A DNA stretch of 64,000 bases. Source: Methanosarcina spelaei (GTDB lineage: Archaea > Halobacteriota > Methanosarcinia > Methanosarcinales > Methanosarcinaceae). The DNA lies in the NCBI RefSeq assembly GCF_002287235.1, contig NZ_LMVP01000223.1:1-64000 (forward strand), given 5' to 3'. The position numbers and the translations under genes were made by a program. The notes below the pieces were generated by a model. It had not been told where the DNA came from and ran no database searches. It worked only from the letters and a program-made list of their open reading frames with translations. Numbering within the stretch: position 1 is the first letter of the stretch; each line of letters starts with the position of its first letter. Below are positions 5,040 to 14,101 of this stretch, piece after piece.

Positions 5040-5305
5040 TTTCTTTTTAATGCCGATGCAAGAATCTATTAAAAAATTAAAGGGCATAGAAGGTATTTCC
5101 AGGCAGGACATTTCCATCAAGTATTCTCGTCTACTAATAAATATATAAGTAGATTAGATCTTCAACCAAAACGCAGTAAGCTAATCCTACAAATACTCTT
5201 TTTGAACTAACTTTTATTAATTGTTTTTTTAGTACAAAGCTTACAGACAACGATAATTTTTCATTAACACTCAAATTTCCGATATAAGTCAATAAATAAT
5301 ATAAA
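5040..5305 (+). repeat. Upstream module, copy 1 of 3
   Basis: About 250 bp similar to 6585-6865 and 8125-8390. Shared blocks are ATTTCCAGGCAGGACATTTC-like, TACT/AATAAATA-like, ACGCAGTAAGCTAATCC-like, and AGTACAAAGCTTACAG plus CGATAATTTTTCATTAACA-like. It precedes the first membrane winged-helix-like gene. It is probably a shared promoter or leader region. The boundaries are approximate. Confidence 0.6.
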
Positions 5306-5771: not shown

Positions 5772-6344
5772 TTGCGCTTGCATTTCTCAAGAATTAACAC
5801 TTATTATCGAAAAGTAAATAAATTATTTAGTCCTCAGAAAACTGTACAAACACAATCGCAATTATCAAAGAGCGATATTTTTGGAGTACTCCAGAACAAC
5901 CGAAGAAGGCTTGTGCTGGAACTCCTCCGCAATCAGGGAGGCCAGAGTGTACGCTCCCTATCCGAAGAGATAGCACATGTTGAATCCCAAGCCGAAGAGC
6001 CAAAAAGGAGTGTTAGAAAAAGTATATATGTTTCACTGCTTCAGACACATATCCCAAAAATGGAAAACCTGGGAATCATTACCTACAATAAGGAGAAGGA
6101 CACTGTGGAACTTCTCCAAGCTTCCCAGGACTTTGACATCTACCTAGAAACTGTTAATAAAGGAGACATCCCCTGGAGCCAGTTCTATCTTGGCCTGAGC
6201 ATACTTGCCTTTATCAGTAGCCTAATTATATTCATAGGAGTGATTAACTGGATCTCAAGTTATAAGTGGATGTTTTTCACAAATGGTCTTTTCATGGTAG
6301 CCTCAATAGCTTATAAACGCCACGCCCGCAAACTTGAGAAATGA
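5772..6344 (+). CDS. Membrane-anchored winged-helix-like protein (DUF7344-like), copy 1
   Basis: A 190-residue protein. Residues about 35-115 (KSDIFGVLQNNRRRLVLELL, then SVRSLSEEIA and SLLQTHIPKMENLGII) look like a winged-helix domain, followed by two C-terminal transmembrane segments (about 136-157 and 165-182). This is the layout of archaeal DUF7344-type proteins, whose role is unproven. A membrane-bound transcription regulator is an inference. TTG at 5772 is chosen because GGAGAG lies six bases upstream and the same GGAGAG-N6-TTG arrangement is kept in the paralog at 7264. Protein identity to that paralog is high through the whole length after residue 20. It shares an upstream module with the TasA-like gene at 8555. 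Confidence 0.8.
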   Translation: MRLHFSRINTYYRKVNKLFSPQKTVQTQSQLSKSDIFGVLQNNRRRLVLELLRNQGGQSVRSLSEEIAHVESQAEEPKRSVRKSIYVSLLQTHIPKMENLGIITYNKEKDTVELLQASQDFDIYLETVNKGDIPWSQFYLGLSILAFISSLIIFIGVINWISSYKWMFFTNGLFMVASIAYKRHARKLEK

Positions 6345-6377: not shown

Positions 6378-6507
6378 AGAGCCTATCCGAAAAGTGGTTA
6401 TCTGCTATAACTTTTAGATATACAACATGCAAAACCGGAACAGATGCCGGGATATTTAGACCTATCGCAATTTTTGATATGCATTACTGACTTTTCGGAT
6501 AGGCTCT
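6378..6507. mobile_element. MITE-like element with 18-bp perfect terminal inverted repeats
   Basis: AGAGCCTATCCGAAAAGT at 6378-6395 is matched exactly by its inverse complement at 6490-6507, enclosing 94 bp with no reading frame. The size (130 bp) and the terminal sequence are typical of miniature inverted-repeat elements mobilised by an IS transposase elsewhere. It lies between the two winged-helix-like genes and could also act as a bidirectional terminator hairpin. Confidence 0.75.
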
Positions 6508-6584: not shown

Positions 6585-6865
6585 TTTTTCTTTTTTTATA
6601 TCTTCTCTCTTACCTCATGCATTGGAGTATTTCTAGAACGGACATTTACTTCAAATCTTCTGATCTACTTAACATACTTAAATAAACATTTAATCTTACA
6701 TAAAATGCAGTAAAATTAAGCCTTTACAAACTTGGTAACGTACTATTATTTGAATTAATTTATGATTAACTCCTTTTTCTCCTTAAAGCCTATTGATAAT
6801 GGTAATTTATCGTTACCGGCTCAAAATTTCTGTTAATTAACCAATAACTAATACTAAAGAAGCAC
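6585..6865 (+). repeat. Upstream module, copy 2 of 3
   Basis: Matches 5040-5305 and 8125-8390 imperfectly. It ends with GGTAATTTATCGTTACCGGC and TAACCAATAACTAATACTAA, the latter exact at 8361-8380. It precedes the second winged-helix-like gene. Boundaries are approximate. Confidence 0.65.
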
Positions 6866-6881
6866 AATTATCATTGTAATT

Positions 6882-6940
6882 ATGATACATTTTATGATAC
6901 ATTTTATGATACATTTTATGATACATTTTATGATACATTT
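6882..6940. repeat. 12-bp tandem repeat, five copies
   Basis: ATGATACATTTT repeated at 6882, 6894, 6906, 6918 and 6930. Short reading frames through it are low-complexity artefacts. Confidence 0.9.
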
Positions 6941-7263: not shown

Positions 7264-7836
7264 TTGTGTTTACTTCTTTCAATAACTCAGGCCCATTACC
7301 AAAAGGAAAATAACACATGTAACCCTCAGATAACTGTACAAACACAGATGCAGTTAACAAAAAATGATATTTTCGGAGTCCTCCAGAATGACAGAAGAAG
7401 ATGTGTCCTGGAAATCCTTCGAAGTCAAGGAAGGCAGAGTGTACGCTCACTGTCCGATGAAATCGCCCGGATTGAATCCCAAGCCGAAGAACCAAAGGAG
7501 AATATTAGAAAAAGCATATATGTTTCATTGCTTCAGACACATATCCCAAAAATGGAAAGTTTGGGAATCGTTGCCTATAGTAAGGAACAGGACACTGTGG
7601 AACTTCTCCCAGCTTCTCGGGACTTTGACATTTACATGGAAACTGTTAAAAACGGGGACATTCCCTGGAGCCAGTTCTATCTTGACCTGAGCATTCTTGC
7701 CATTGTCGGCAGCCTTATGATATTTTCAGGGTTAATCAAATGTATCTCAAGTTTTCAGTGGATATTCTTCACAATTGGAATTTTTATGGCTACCTCAATA
7801 GCCCATATGTACTACGTCCGCAAACTTGGAAAATGA
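7264..7836 (+). CDS. Membrane-anchored winged-helix-like protein (DUF7344-like), copy 2
   Basis: A tandem paralog of the 5772 gene, also 190 residues. It has the same winged-helix-like segment (KNDIFGVLQNDRRRCVLEIL through SLLQTHIPKMESLGIV) and two C-terminal membrane spans (about 136-158, 165-182). The core sentence IYVSLLQTHIPKME and the DIPWSQFYLDLSILA linker are nearly identical between copies, so the duplication is recent or under strong constraint. The start TTG is supported by GGAGAG six bases upstream, conserved in both copies. The N-terminal 20 residues differ from copy 1. Its position just before the TasA/SipW-like set suggests a regulatory role there, which is an inference. Confidence 0.8.
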   Translation: MCLLLSITQAHYQKENNTCNPQITVQTQMQLTKNDIFGVLQNDRRRCVLEILRSQGRQSVRSLSDEIARIESQAEEPKENIRKSIYVSLLQTHIPKMESLGIVAYSKEQDTVELLPASRDFDIYMETVKNGDIPWSQFYLDLSILAIVGSLMIFSGLIKCISSFQWIFFTIGIFMATSIAHMYYVRKLGK

Positions 7837-7873
7837 GCTAAATTTATTACGCGAATACGTGTTCTTTAATTAT

Positions 7874-8117
7874 TTGAGCTCATCCCAAAACCAATTTTTT
7901 TCCAAATATCATACTATTTTCATGTTAGAAATTAAAGCAATTGGCAGTGTGCCACTTTTTCTGTAAAATTATAAATCTTATAAAGTTTGTGGTTTGAAAA
8001 TCCCCTAGCAAGAGAACTGAATTTTGTTCAGTATACAAAAATTTGACTTTGAATTTACAGAACTTTCGGCACACTGCAAGCAATTATTCAAAATTCAAGG
8101 TTTGGGGATAGGCTCAA
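7874..8117. mobile_element. MITE-like element, 244 bp, palindromic along its length
   Basis: The ends TTGAGCTCATCCCAAAACC (7874-7892) and the inverse complement of GGTTTGGGGATAGGCTCAA (8099-8117) match at 16 of 19 positions. Inner arms also pair: AGCAATTGGCAGTGTGCC with the inverse of GGCACACTGCAAGCAATT, and TTCTGTAAAATT with AATTTACAGAA. There is no transposase gene. A short reading frame crossing the right end (8024-8221) is not believed to be a gene. Confidence 0.7.
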
Positions 8118-8124
8118 GAATAGA

Positions 8125-8390
8125 TGTCAAAAGATTGTTTTATTCTTTTTTAGTACTTAAGCGAAGGTACTTCTGGATACAACAGTCACCTCAACTTTTC
8201 ATCTACCTTCCAGAACATTAAATAAGTATTTCGATCTTAACCAAGAATCTTTTTTTCCTACAAGCAACTTTTCAGAGTTAACTGTTGATTAACTTCTTTT
8301 TCAATACAAAGCTTAACGATAGTGGTAATTTTTCATTAACAGCCCAAAATTTTCGTTAAGTAACCAATAACTAATACTAAGGAAGAATGA
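8125..8390 (+). repeat. Upstream module, copy 3 of 3
   Basis: Similar to 5040-5305 and 6585-6865. The clearest part is the right half: CAATACAAAGCTTAACGATA, GGTAATTTTTCATTAACAGC and TAACCAATAACTAATACTAA. It lies about 165 bp upstream of the TasA-like gene, so all three neighbouring genes carry the same upstream block. Confidence 0.6.
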
Positions 8391-8554
8391 TAAGGAAAAA
8401 AAATCCTGATGTGAGATACTTGCAATTAAAAGATGAATAGAATTACTTATTCTAATTCTTCTAATACAGGCTCAAATAAATGAAAGTGCCTTCAAGTGTT
8501 TTCATACCAGATCTGATATTACAGGATTAAAAACCGAAAAAAGGAGGCCATATA

Positions 8555-9067
8555 TTGGTTAATAAAAAAATAATATTGAGTATACTTATTATAGGCTGTA
8601 TTGCCACCGTAGCAGGTGCAGGAACGTGGGCATACTACACAAGTTCTGCAACTAGTTCAGGAAACAGTTTTACTGCAGGAAATATGAATATTAGCGTAAC
8701 CCAAGAAATTGGTAACGTGTCGATAAAGCCAGGTGATGAACTTGGTGATAAGACTATTGTTGTTAAGAATGGAGGAAGCATTGCCATAGGAAAAATAAAC
8801 CTAACCTATAAACCCAGTAATAATCAGCTCAGCCAGCATATTGAATTTAGCAGTGTGGATATTGACGGCAAACAAATAGCTAAAAAAGGGGTACTTTCAG
8901 ATCTTAGTAGTCAAACCAGTGTATATGAACCAGATAACCCTATTCAACCTGGTAACAGCTTTAAGATTACATTAAACGATTTGAAAATGGACGATAAGGT
9001 TACAGAAGGTCAGGGTCAAACAAGCACTTTGGTTATAACACTTGAGGCAGAACAAGTGCATAAATGA
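8555..9067 (+). CDS. TasA/camelysin-like secreted protein with SipW-type signal peptide
   Basis: A 170-residue exported protein. Residues 3-26 form a hydrophobic signal segment, followed by GTWAYYTSSATSSGNSFTAG, the pattern of substrates of SipW-type signal peptidases (as in TasA and camelysin of bacilli). The rest is beta-rich, with ISVTQEIGNVSIKPGDELG and a hydrophobic ETLVITLEAE-like end. TTG at 8555 is supported by AGGAGG eight to nine bases upstream. A dedicated signal peptidase is encoded at 11423, with another likely substrate at 9281. By analogy it may form surface fibres or a matrix. That role is an inference. Confidence 0.75.
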   Translation: MVNKKIILSILIIGCIATVAGAGTWAYYTSSATSSGNSFTAGNMNISVTQEIGNVSIKPGDELGDKTIVVKNGGSIAIGKINLTYKPSNNQLSQHIEFSSVDIDGKQIAKKGVLSDLSSQTSVYEPDNPIQPGNSFKITLNDLKMDDKVTEGQGQTSTLVITLEAEQVHK

Positions 9068-9078
9068 AGGTGACTAAT

Positions 9079-9218
9079 AGAGCTAAAAGTTCCAAAAAAG
9101 TCAATAGTGACATACTGTAAAATGTTACAATAGAGTGTATATCGAGTACAAGCTAAGTTGTGATCTACTGTCAATTGTAAAAGTTACAGTAGGTCACAAC
9201 ACTTTTTGGACAGGCTCT
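9079..9218. mobile_element. Probable degenerate MITE, 140 bp
   Basis: The right end reads AGAGCCTGTCCAAAAAGTGT on the complement. The left end AGAGCTAAAAGTTCCAAAAAAG is similar with small indels. Inner stretches CATACTGTAAAATGTTAC and the complement of GTAAAAGTTACAGTAGG also pair. It lies between the TasA-like and PKD genes and may instead serve as a terminator hairpin. Confidence 0.45.
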
Positions 9219-9280
9219 AAAACCCAAATTCGTACACAAAGAAAACAGTACTTACTAGTAAAAACACTAGATGATCCAAA

Positions 9281-11275
9281 ATGAGAACATCTAATAAGAT
9301 TATTTTTTTGGGATTGATATTTGTTTTTCTCACCTTCACGTGTAGCACTTTACCTTTTTCAGATACATCCGCTTCTTTCAGTGATACAAAACATACGAAT
9401 GCTGAGATCACCGCAGGTCTCTGGGACACCCCAGCAAGCATGATTGGATTATCGGATCCTAATCTTACCGCAAAAAGCGAAAAACTCAATAGAACTGTTA
9501 ATAGTGCAAAAGGAGATAATGATTCAACATCCACTTACGAAAGTACCTTAGCCGAAAATTTTTCTAATAATGTAAGTTCATTTCTGAATAACATAAGTTC
9601 AGCAGAAAATCTGACTAATAATTCCTCTACAGCAGTAAACAGGACAATTACCCTGATAGAAGCCAGTGAAAACAACATGAGTTCAAGCATGGACTTGAGT
9701 TCAAGCATGGGCTCAAGTTCTGGTTCCACAACAACTATAGAAAAAGATGAGGAGATTACTCCGGTTGCAAACTTTAGAAGCAACGTAACTGAAGGTTATA
9801 CCCCCTTGACTGTACAGTTTACTGATCTTTCGGAAAATGTAACCGAATGGAACTGGGAATTCGGAGACGGAGATACTTCAAGTGAACAAGATCCAGTGCA
9901 TACTTACTCTGCAACAGGGACCTATGAAGTCAGCTTGATTGCAAACAATGAAAATGGTACAGATTCAAAGCTTGCCACAATAACCATTCATGAACAACCT
10001 GATGGAGCCATTCCGATTGCAAACTTCACCAGTAATGTAACAGATGGTTTTGCTCCTCTGACAGTTAAGTTTACAGATCTCTCGCAAAATGCAACTGAAT
10101 GGGACTGGAACTTTGGAGACGGAGATACTTCAACTCAGCAAAATCAGATGCATACCTTCTCAGTAGCGGGAAATTATAACGTTAACCTGACAGTAAGTAA
10201 CGAAAACAGCACTAGTTCAAAGCTTGCCACAATAAACGTTCATGAACAAATTGCAGTCATTCCGGTTGCAAACTTCACCAGTAATGTAACAGATGGTTTT
10301 GCTCCTCTGACAGTTCAGTTTACAGACAGCTCGAAAAATGCAACTGAGATAAACTGGAACTTCGGAGATGGAGATACTTCAACCGATCATGACCCAGTTC
10401 ATATTTACTCTGCATCAGGAAACTATAGCGTTAATTTGACAGTACGTAATGAAAATGGAACAAGCTCGAAACTCGCCACAATAACTGTTCAAAAGCAATT
10501 TGCCGGAACATTCCCAGTTGCAAACTTCAGCAGTAATGCAACTGAAGGTTATGCTCCTTTGACTGTACAGTTTACTGATCTTTCTGAAAATGCAACTGAA
10601 TGGAAATGGGATTTTGGAAATGGAGAAACTTCTACCGATCAGAACCCAGTGCATACTTTTTCAGAAGCAGGAAGTTATAAAGTTAACCTGACAGTAAACA
10701 ACGAAAACGGCACTGGTTCAAAACTTACTAGTTCAAAACTTACTAGTTCAAAACTTAACACAATAACCATTTTACAACCCATATTTCCGGTTGCAAATTT
10801 CACCAGTAATTTAACTGAGGGTTATACTCCTCTGACAGTTCAGTTTACTGACCTTTCGGAAAATGCAACTATGATAAACTGGAATTTTGGAGACGGAGAT
10901 ACTTCAACTGAGAAAAATCCGATGCATCTTTACTCAGCAGCAGGAAATTATAACGTTAACCTGACAGTAAATAACGAAAACGGCACCAGTTCAAAACTTG
11001 CCACAATAACCATTTTACAACCCATACTTCCGGTTGCAAACTTCACCAGTAATTTAACTGATGGATATGTTCCTTTGACAGTTCAGTTCACAGATCTTTC
11101 GGAAAATGTAACTGAATGGGAATGGGATTTTGGTGACGGAAGCACTTCAAGAGAGCAAGAACCTGTGCATACTTTTTCAGAAGCAGGAAATTATAGCGTT
11201 AACCTGACCGCAGACAATGATAATGGCACGAGTGCAAAAACAAGTAAAATTATTGTGAATGAAATTCCAAGGTAA
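9281..11275 (+). CDS. Secreted protein with six PKD domains and SipW-type N-terminus
   Basis: A 664-residue surface or secreted protein. The N-terminal hydrophobic stretch (about 7-25) leads into SASFSDTKHTNAEITAG, again resembling the SipW-substrate motif. Residues about 60-160 are Ser/Asn/Thr-rich with many N-x-S/T sites. Six PKD domains follow, each starting PVANFxSNxTxGxxPLTVxF and holding WxFGDGDTS. PKD domains are beta-sandwiches common in Methanosarcina surface-layer and adhesion proteins. Between repeats 4 and 5 a 15-base unit (TTCAAAACTTACTAG) occurs three times in frame, giving SSKLTSSKLTSSKL. There is no C-terminal membrane anchor. It is probably glycosylated and processed by the peptidase encoded next. 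Confidence 0.85.
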   Translation: MRTSNKIIFLGLIFVFLTFTCSTLPFSDTSASFSDTKHTNAEITAGLWDTPASMIGLSDPNLTAKSEKLNRTVNSAKGDNDSTSTYESTLAENFSNNVSSFLNNISSAENLTNNSSTAVNRTITLIEASENNMSSSMDLSSSMGSSSGSTTTIEKDEEITPVANFRSNVTEGYTPLTVQFTDLSENVTEWNWEFGDGDTSSEQDPVHTYSATGTYEVSLIANNENGTDSKLATITIHEQPDGAIPIANFTSNVTDGFAPLTVKFTDLSQNATEWDWNFGDGDTSTQQNQMHTFSVAGNYNVNLTVSNENSTSSKLATINVHEQIAVIPVANFTSNVTDGFAPLTVQFTDSSKNATEINWNFGDGDTSTDHDPVHIYSASGNYSVNLTVRNENGTSSKLATITVQKQFAGTFPVANFSSNATEGYAPLTVQFTDLSENATEWKWDFGNGETSTDQNPVHTFSEAGSYKVNLTVNNENGTGSKLTSSKLTSSKLNTITILQPIFPVANFTSNLTEGYTPLTVQFTDLSENATMINWNFGDGDTSTEKNPMHLYSAAGNYNVNLTVNNENGTSSKLATITILQPILPVANFTSNLTDGYVPLTVQFTDLSENVTEWEWDFGDGSTSREQEPVHTFSEAGNYSVNLTADNDNGTSAKTSKIIVNEIPR

Positions 11276-11422
11276 CCTAATTTGAAAGATTTTACTTCGT
11301 TTGAGTTTAGTAAAGGCTACGTCAGTGAAATATCTCTGGAAAAGACTGAACTCAAAAATTGAAACTTATCCAAATTAGGGTTGATAATTCTGAAAATAGA
11401 AGTTCCAGTACGGGAATAAAAA

Positions 11423-12460
11423 ATGAATAAAAAAGAAGTTCTTCAAGCAGCAATTGTCCTTATCATTGCGATTTTTCTGTTCAAGGCCTTGATTCCGTTC
11501 ATTACAGGATCAGAGAAAGCTTTTATAGTATTAAGCGGGAGCATGACGCCCCTAATGCTACCTGGAGATATAATAGTTGTAAAATCGGTAGACCTGAACG
11601 ACCTTACTGTTGGAGATATCTTAACTTTTCAGGATCCTGGAGGTAAACCTAATACCTACGTAACTCATCGGATCATCACCTTAAAAGAAGATAAGGAACT
11701 GATTTTTAAGACAAAAGGGGATGCAAACAATGCAGAAGACAACTTCAACGTGACCGCATCAAAAGCTGTCGGACAAATGGTCTTTGTCATCCCATTTGTA
11801 GGCTACCTACCGAAGATTGCAAAAAATAAAAATATTTTTTTCCTCATGGTTATATTGCCTGCAAGTTTAATCGTGATTGGTGAAATATGGAATATAATTC
11901 TATATAGTAGCCCTCAACATGCCAGAAAAATAGAAAGAAAACGCAAAAAAACAACGACGAAAGCTTTTTATGAAGTTAAAGGGAAGAAACTGACAGCACT
12001 CATTCTTATAAATGGGCTTATTTTTACAGGGATAATTACACAAAATCTGGGAGAAAATGGGCCTGTAATTCTAAATAAAGAAAACAATATAGAAAACTCA
12101 GGATTTCTTTCTATGATATATGTTTTCACGCCTGATGACCCAAAGCAAACACTTTCAATTGATCATTGGTACGGAGTGATTCCCCAGAATAATGAAACTC
12201 AAGTTATTGCGCCGGAAAATACCCCTGCAAAATTGAACACTGTCCCTTATATTCTGCCTGTTTTCTGGATACTAGAACTTACAAAAATAAATCCCTATCT
12301 TCCTGTAGCTGCCGAAATTGTAGTTTATGCCTCAATTTTTACACTAATATTACTTCCTATATGGTACAGGAAATCTACAATTGGAGGACGTAGGAAAAGG
12401 ATTAGATTTTACCGAATGTTTGCACAGTGGAAACGAACTTTCCGCTTTGTAAATTTATAA
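11423..12460 (+). CDS. SipW/Sec11-type signal peptidase I with C-terminal membrane extension
   Basis: A membrane serine peptidase that removes signal peptides outside the cytoplasm. An N-terminal membrane span (about 7-27) precedes the catalytic Ser40 in LSGSMTP. The general base is His, in YVTHRI near residue 83, rather than Lys, as in SipW and eukaryotic Sec11. TKGDANNAED holds the conserved acidic residue. After a second span (about 138-158) a basic linker and roughly 160 further residues with spans near 195 and 295 are present, much longer than minimal SipW. ATG at 11423. It lies directly after the two putative substrates, which points to a dedicated processing enzyme. Confidence 0.85.
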   Translation: MNKKEVLQAAIVLIIAIFLFKALIPFITGSEKAFIVLSGSMTPLMLPGDIIVVKSVDLNDLTVGDILTFQDPGGKPNTYVTHRIITLKEDKELIFKTKGDANNAEDNFNVTASKAVGQMVFVIPFVGYLPKIAKNKNIFFLMVILPASLIVIGEIWNIILYSSPQHARKIERKRKKTTTKAFYEVKGKKLTALILINGLIFTGIITQNLGENGPVILNKENNIENSGFLSMIYVFTPDDPKQTLSIDHWYGVIPQNNETQVIAPENTPAKLNTVPYILPVFWILELTKINPYLPVAAEIVVYASIFTLILLPIWYRKSTIGGRRKRIRFYRMFAQWKRTFRFVNL

Positions 12461-12631
12461 GGAAGTTAGCTTAACGATATGTAATAAAATAATATGCAAA
12501 TATAAGGATATATCAAAAAGTTTGTGAGCAAAAAGGCTGATTTGATGTCAATAAATATTTTGTAAATATCTTATTACTTTAATTATTTCGTTGTAAATAT
12601 GAAACAGATCTGGAACAAATTCAACTTTATC

Positions 12632-12650
12632 TTGAGCTCATCCTATAACC
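12632..12650. other. Solo MITE end
   Basis: TTGAGCTCATCCTATAACC resembles the left terminal repeat of the element at 7874-7892 (TTGAGCTCATCCCAAAACC). No partner end was found before the next gene, so this is probably a fragment. Confidence 0.4.
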
Positions 12651-12731
12651 GATTTTACTCTCAAAAATCAGTAAAATTTCAGAACTGTTTTTCACCTGAA
12701 TCAGGTTAATTACTAGTGTATCGATTCAAAA

Positions 12732-12768
12732 ATTGATCAATAATCGAAGGAAGAGTTTATTGATCAAT
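12732..12768. promoter_or_regulatory. Perfect 12-bp inverted repeat upstream of DUF5305-like gene
   Basis: ATTGATCAATAA at 12732-12743 and its exact complement at 12757-12768, with a 13-base spacer. Each arm contains the palindrome TTGATCAA. It lies about 210 bp before the next start. It could be an operator or a transcript hairpin. The rest of 12461-12979 holds no gene. Confidence 0.5.
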
Positions 12769-12979
12769 GAATAGGTTTAGAATTTCAGTTTTATGAGTGT
12801 ACTTAGGAATCGAAGTACTAGGATTACTGGGTTCAGAAAGAATATTGAGTTCTGGGACTAGCTATTAGATACCTTTAAATTTAGAATTAAATTTATAAAA
12901 TTGTGATTATAAAACATTTTGATTAAATTGGAATGTTTATTCATTAGGGAAATATGAAGGCGATATTCTGAAAATTCTA

Positions 12980-14101
12980 TTGTTTAAACTTAAAAATGCC
13001 ATAATAGACAGACATAAAATACTCATACTTTTATTTGGAATAATGCTGATTCTTTGCGGGTTCTGGACTTACGAAACTTCAAGGGCCGTCTATGAAGACA
13101 AAGATGAAGTAGTTACTCTATATACACATCATGGGTCCTATAATTATACGGTGCCTGTAACAAAGGAAAATCCACTCTACGGAAAAGGAACCACGCTTAA
13201 ATTGGGAATGCCTGCGTATTATTTTGCCGTATCTCCCACTGTTGACATGTCATTCACTTACAATCTTGAGGCTAATGATTCTTCTGATATCAGAGGAAAG
13301 ATACAAACAATAGTTGTTGCAACTGATAAGGGAGAATCTGAGACTGATGAATATTATGGAAATAATGGATCTGAAACTGAGGGATCAGGTAAAGAAGAGA
13401 AAATTTTCTGGCAGAAAGTATTTCCTTTGAAATATAAAGAAGGTACTGAAACCTGGACTGGAACATCCGTAACTAGAAACTTTTCCCTTAACGTGTCCGA
13501 AATTCACTCAATAGTTAAAGACGTTCAGGAACAGCTAGAATGCTCAGATGACGCAACAATAGAAATTGTAAATCGCGTCAGTTATAACGGAAAAATAAAC
13601 GGAGAGAACGTCCAGGGTACAAAAGATTTTGTTATACCTCTGGTAATAAGTTCTTCATACTATCAGATGCCTGAAGAACTGGAATTCAGTCAGGATACTA
13701 ATGTAACTAAAAAGATAAGTGTCAAAAATTCCCCTTCACTGTCAACCATTAAGATACCTCTACTCTTATTCCTGCTTAACCTGATTTTTGTTGGGGTTAC
13801 TCTACTCTGTGTGAAAACAAATAAAATCGAGCCGAATTATATTGAAAAACTAGAAAAGGAACGTAGCCGCGAACCTTTTAAGGAGTTCGTCAGCAAAGGC
13901 AAGCTTCCCGAAAATGTAAGTTCCCTTATCAAAGTTGAGATAGGTTCCCTCCAGGGACTTGTAGACGCAGCTGTTGATATGAATTCAAGGGTAATTTATG
14001 ATTCTGAATCAAGGATGTATTTCATGATTCATAGTAGCGTGCTGTACATTTTCTTTGATACACCAAAGAGAGAAAACAAAAACCTATCAAACTCAGATTG
14101 A
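12980..14101 (+). CDS. DUF5305-like membrane protein
   Basis: A 373-residue protein. An N-terminal membrane span (about 14-32) is followed by a large external domain with YNYTVPVTKENPLYGKG and YYFAVSPTVDMSFTY, typical of the DUF5305 family. A second span lies near 256-277, then a roughly 95-residue cytoplasmic tail (KIEPNYIEKLEKERS...). Archaeal DUF5305 proteins are often found beside SipW-like signal peptidases. The function is unknown, and a role in export or maturation of the SipW substrates is a guess from context. The start is TTG at 12980. An earlier ATG near 12955 hits a stop after five codons. Confidence 0.7.
   Translation: MFKLKNAIIDRHKILILLFGIMLILCGFWTYETSRAVYEDKDEVVTLYTHHGSYNYTVPVTKENPLYGKGTTLKLGMPAYYFAVSPTVDMSFTYNLEANDSSDIRGKIQTIVVATDKGESETDEYYGNNGSETEGSGKEEKIFWQKVFPLKYKEGTETWTGTSVTRNFSLNVSEIHSIVKDVQEQLECSDDATIEIVNRVSYNGKINGENVQGTKDFVIPLVISSSYYQMPEELEFSQDTNVTKKISVKNSPSLSTIKIPLLLFLLNLIFVGVTLLCVKTNKIEPNYIEKLEKERSREPFKEFVSKGKLPENVSSLIKVEIGSLQGLVDAAVDMNSRVIYDSESRMYFMIHSSVLYIFFDTPKRENKNLSNSD

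Follow-up and report, generated by a model that had tools for sequence, protein, structure and literature searches.

The window, a 64,000-nucleotide stretch of Methanosarcina spelaei DNA (contig NZ_LMVP01000223.1), contains a locus that probably encodes a dedicated module for the Sec-dependent export, cleavage and assembly of subunits that would form a donor-strand TasA-type fibre. Four open reading frames (8555-14101) code for a TasA-like protein, a PKD protein, a signal peptidase and a DUF5305 protein, and two genes for DUF7344 regulators are located upstream (Table 1). The intergenic gaps measure 147-519 bp. A preliminary description had named a small TasA-like protein and a PKD protein with SipW-type signals, a His-type Sec11/SipW-like peptidase with an unusual C-terminal membrane extension, a DUF5305-like membrane protein and upstream regulators. 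All genes were found as claimed, with a weaker signal on the PKD protein. The set had also been called complete: a minimal set is present, and the short second SipW of most related clusters is missing. As far as sequence reaches, the reading as a dedicated pathway is supported by conservation, the structure match to TasA and the context of fimbrial loci.

TasA-related archaeal filaments and SipW-type export are already known (PMC9674648, PMC10151520). New are the joint occurrence of DUF7344, extended peptidase and DUF5305 in loci of both TasA and Taf type, the homology of the Ig-like peptidase extensions, and a conserved upstream DNA element. In the proposed mechanism, the DUF7344 regulators would turn the module on via the shared upstream element. 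The Sec pathway would export the TasA-like subunit and the PKD protein, both with SipW-type signals. The signals would be cut by the long Sec11/SipW-like peptidase, whose C-terminal extension is predicted to hold an Ig-like domain outside the cytoplasm. The peptidase may act beside DUF5305, a predicted membrane-anchored beta-sandwich protein, so that the subunit would be freed where a handover is possible. Polymerization would proceed by donor-strand exchange, and the PKD protein may be an adhesive or a tip/anchor component.

Table 1. Features of the locus, in positions of the window.
Feature	Position	Strand	Evidence or remark
Upstream element copy 1, before regulator 1	5213-5301	+	repeat D5; nhmmer E=3e-25
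DUF7344 winged-helix regulator 1, C-terminal hydrophobic segments	5772-6344	+	PF24035 E=5.2e-24
Upstream element copy 2, before regulator 2	6763-6862	+	81% identical to copy 3, E=6.5e-21
DUF7344 winged-helix regulator 2, paralogue of regulator 1	7264-7836	+	PF24035 E=1.3e-23
Upstream element copy 3, before TasA-like gene	8285-8385	+	repeat and nhmmer search
GGAGG ribosome-binding site of the TTG-started TasA-like gene	8543-8547	+	sequence
TasA-like fibre subunit (putative)	8555-9067	+	camelysin domain, SipW-type signal, TasA structure match
Large secreted PKD protein	9281-11275	+	SipW-type N-terminus, Ser/Thr/Asn-rich linker, six PKD domains
Sec11/SipW-type Ser-His signal peptidase core	11423-11890	+	TIGR02228, SEC11C; gene ends 12460
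Peptidase C-terminal extension, extra TM helices around Ig-like ectodomain (about 12044-12295)	11891-12460	+	
DUF5305 membrane protein	12980-14101	+	TM helix, beta-sandwich ectodomain, TM helix, cytoplasmic domain

The exported proteins

The TasA-like protein matches the Pfam camelysin family (PF12389, E=7.7e-9) and the SipW-type signal model (TIGR04088, E=1.6e-8). The signal reads GAGTWA|YYT, with a predicted cleavage after Ala26. A phmmer search of the single protein against PDB sequences yielded no significant match, and a family profile was therefore needed. Built from 33 relatives, it retrieved the Bacillus TasA crystal structure (5of1, E=3.3e-11) and fibre (8aur, E=3.9e-11). The P2' residue of the predicted cut (GTWA|xF/Y), counted on the alignment, is Phe or Tyr in 31 of the 33 relatives. 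TasA itself is reported to have Phe at P2' and to be cut poorly by the signal peptidase of E. coli (PMC10269814).

The second exported protein carries the six PKD domains, while its SipW-signal score reaches the model cut-off only (19 bits). Its position is taken in related clusters by a smaller SipW-signal protein, and some of these counterparts have higher-scoring, recognizable SipW-type signals. The predicted signal of the PKD protein thus rests more firmly on its positional counterparts than on its own score. The TapA model (TIGR04087) scored weakly on the window proteins (E=0.0065), in the signal region only.

Camelysin/TasA-family proteins are heterogeneous. The export set might therefore serve soluble or cell-wall-bound surface proteins of an adhesin or coat, the TasA-like proteins being secreted as monomers, as some camelysins are, and the peptidase-DUF5305 pair merely ensuring their processing. 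The adhesin-like PKD partner and the several diverged TasA-like paralogues in each cluster fit such a role. However, the profile match covers the TasA domain for the most part, taking in its N-terminal strand, the conserved Pro/Asn-x-Gly region and the C-terminal N-x-QG...Q region. According to PMC10151520, the residues best conserved among TasA-like proteins lie in the protomer interface of the filament. In other archaeal loci, annotated fimbrial subunits are accompanied by the same auxiliary genes. Export of non-polymerizing proteins is thus improbable, and a TasA-type fibre is the preferred reading.

The gene set resembles the tapA-sipW-tasA biofilm fibre operon of Bacillus subtilis (PMC9674648, PMC10151520) in its TasA-family subunit with a SipW-type signal, a dedicated Ser-His SipW-type peptidase alongside and another exported protein whose signal is of that type. 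In contrast to that operon, the archaeal window has a large PKD protein in place of a clear TapA, its peptidase carries additional transmembrane helices and a putative Ig-like domain, and DUF5305 and DUF7344 proteins belong to the set. Another TasA-related archaeal filament protein is AbpA of the bundling pili of Pyrobaculum calidifontis (Wang et al., 2022, PNAS, as cited in PMC9674648 and PMC10151520). The TasA-like family profile, run against PDB sequences, returned TasA entries and one insignificant chain; AbpA was not among them.

The extended signal peptidase and DUF5305

The long peptidase (345 residues, 11423-12460) matches the archaeal signal peptidase model TIGR02228 (E=4.6e-32) and the Bacillus SipW model (E=8e-26). 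Its core is homologous to human SEC11C (E=1.3e-21). Ser40, His82, Asp100 and Asp106 do not vary among 22 relatives, and the enzyme is therefore of the Ser-His type. The core is followed by a conserved extension of about 190 residues. In the structural model (mean pLDDT 67), extra transmembrane helices surround a beta-rich ectodomain at residues 213-275. Fold searches with the extension returned a PapD-like domain of HYDIN (E=0.075), the MSP domain of yeast SCS2 (0.089) and the fimbrial chaperones FaeE (0.11) and YadV (0.27), none of them significant alone. Pfam comparisons gave Ig_VWA7 (1.3e-5) as well as Cep192_D3, Ig_CFAP65 and MSP. These weak but mutually consistent matches suggest an Ig-like ectodomain of the PapD/MSP type.

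In a donor-strand fibre system, a peptidase fused to a domain resembling fimbrial chaperones would be mechanistically sensible. One quite doubtful proposal is that the extension is a PapD-like chaperone domain which caps the freshly cut TasA-like subunit and, with DUF5305, passes it to the fibre. If true, archaea would possess an equivalent of chaperone-usher assembly that works with one membrane, and fimbriae of the TasA type (Sec, SipW signal) and of the Taf type (Tat-like signal) would both use it.

The intact archaeal signal peptidase core would also suit a general second signal peptidase that lies beside secreted proteins by chance. Against this stand a housekeeping peptidase encoded elsewhere in the host genome (G000:C2:2117-2599, 185 aa, no extension) and, within the genus, the confinement of the long form to genomes with DUF5305. 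A general function of the long peptidase is very improbable.

DUF5305 was assigned with E=5.4e-39. The model (mean pLDDT 75) predicts a transmembrane helix, a beta-sandwich, a second transmembrane helix and a small cytoplasmic domain. Comparison with the PDB gave no credible sequence match and no significant fold. It is possible, though somewhat doubtful, that DUF5305 assists the peptidase as an accessory subunit, as SPC22/23 does for SEC11, with no part in fibre assembly; this role would be compatible with the remainder of the fibre module. The signal peptidase nearly always adjoins DUF5305, and the model shows a single transmembrane helix followed by a beta-sandwich. However, searches of PDB sequences up to E=10 retrieved no subunit of the signal peptidase complex, no significant fold match appeared, and DUF5305 also has the second transmembrane helix and the cytoplasmic domain. 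The window peptidase and the eukaryotic signal peptidase complex (SEC11A/C) share the homologous core, but DUF5305 and the extension have no found sequence relation to SPC subunits. No partner of the SPC22/23, SPC25 or SPC12 kind matched DUF5305 in PDB sequences or folds, and no SPC accessory chain was among the matches listed for the extension. A kinship of DUF5305 to SPC subunits is accordingly unsupported by the PDB sequence or fold search. Homology between DUF5305 and the extension was likewise rejected (hhalign probability 0.6).

Conservation and the link to Taf fimbriae

The gene set is a conserved system, well beyond chance. The conservation search proposed in the preliminary description found the order kept within Methanosarcina and outside it. 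Eleven Methanosarcina genomes contain the conserved set, as do named genomes of Methanoculleus and Methanocalculus, and the cluster order recurs in further archaea. With variations, the Methanosarcina order is DUF7344, TasA-like (1-3 genes), short SipW, SipW-signal/PKD protein, long peptidase and DUF5305. Most related Methanosarcina clusters contain the additional short SipW, which is missing from the window locus, from its orthologues L024 and L025, and from Methanoculleus. The long peptidase and DUF5305 genes overlap in Methanoculleus and Methanocalculus, which suggests co-transcription there. Of 393 genomes sampled from the phylum, 101 encode DUF5305, and a signal peptidase is nearby in 18 of 20 DUF5305 loci of distant families. 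In locus L022 (genome G021), a long peptidase gene (657-1811) lies away from the cluster core, and a short peptidase fragment (7791-8081) is fused in frame with the distal extension motif; this suggests duplication and decay.

The host genome encodes two DUF5305 proteins, three DUF7344 proteins, four SipW-type signals and four archaeal-type signal peptidases. Apart from the 185-residue housekeeping peptidase, all of these, and thus three of the four peptidases, map to the window locus or to a single paralogous cluster on contig C73. A survey of 31 genomes of the genus found DUF5305 in 11, and the long peptidase in exactly these. SipW-type signals were detected in these 11 and in two incomplete genomes, while congeners without DUF5305 keep the housekeeping peptidase alone. 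Genome-wide exclusivity and co-occurrence in the genus rule out a chance neighbourhood. The second host cluster (G000:C73:420-7023, locus L018) comprises a pair of TasA-like genes, one additional short SipW (159 aa), a SipW-signal protein without PKD domains, a long peptidase, DUF5305 and one DUF7344.

Methanosarcina acetivorans, used as a control genome, gave no match for a SipW-type signal, DUF5305 or DUF7344 at the thresholds used, and would therefore be a clean host. The species is genetically tractable. Archaeal fibre assembly thus becomes testable, and the module ties an unrecognized subgroup of archaeal signal peptidases and two uncharacterized families, DUF5305 and DUF7344 (neither name found in the literature searched), to the putative assembly of beta-strand surface fibres. 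It also brings archaeal TasA-type and Taf-type systems into one framework.

Distant DUF5305 loci are of two kinds, with either TasA-like subunits or DUF1102-/Taf-like proteins. The Taf loci (NCBIfam TafA, TafC, TafE, TafF) are haloarchaeal, and Taf stands for the Tat-exported fimbriae described in Haloarcula hispanica. All five loci with a bona fide TafA contain the long peptidase. For DUF7344, two of them are confirmed and the rest were read by eye, and DUF5305 is adjacent in three. The other Taf models were scored on two of the five loci, where TafC, TafE and TafF exceeded the cut-off. Loci L119 and L120 have TafA, a DUF7344-type regulator and the extended peptidase; DUF5305 is not nearby, yet it is encoded elsewhere in both genomes. 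Since two of the five loci lack an adjacent DUF5305, the protein may be dispensable or act in trans.

The auxiliary set of DUF7344, extended signal peptidase and DUF5305, as drawn here from the Taf loci and not from a published definition, is present in the window. Both locus types share DUF7344, the homologous peptidase extension and often DUF5305. They differ in their subunits, which are of Taf type with twin-arginine-like signals (MNRRNVL...) in the Taf loci and TasA-like with SipW-type signals in the window. The extensions of window-type and Taf/DUF1102-type peptidases are homologous (hhalign probability 96.7, E=3.5e-10; at most 0.3% in 12 column shuffles). A single clade of long peptidases is unsupported: in the tree of the core, the two groups fall on separate sides of a branch, their extensions being nonetheless homologous. 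TasA-like and DUF1102/Taf subunits align with an hhalign probability of 60 over 48 columns, a merely suggestive value for one subunit superfamily. Given this weak likeness, the two groups may make different fibres. The TafA, TafC, TafE and TafF models did not match the window proteins, and the host genome has no TafA match at E<=1e-10.

Regulators, upstream element and repeats

Both upstream regulators belong to DUF7344, with E about 1e-23. An element of 90-135 bp precedes each regulator gene and the TasA-like gene. BLAST against the host genome gave strong matches to the three copies of the window locus only. A diverged copy is located 5' of the TasA-like gene on C73, and other Methanosarcina clusters have related elements upstream of TasA-like and/or DUF7344 genes. 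The DUF7344 proteins may bind this element and thereby control the locus.

Another repeat, TTGAGCTCATCC (7874, 12632), was considered as a regulatory site of the locus and rejected as a dispersed genome repeat with 38 matches. It occurs as TTGAGCTCATCCnAnAACCnATTTT at 7874-7898 and 12632-12656; the genome holds 38 matches at <=2 mismatches, against 0 in a reversed-pattern control. A perfect 18-nt inverted repeat, AGAGCCTATCCGAAAAGT, occurs at 6378-6395 and 6490-6507, 94 nt apart. It resembles the ends of a small mobile element, and a further, related sequence is located around 9200-9220. Between the two regulator genes, positions 6868-6940 consist of a 12-nt tandem repeat, TTATGATACATT.
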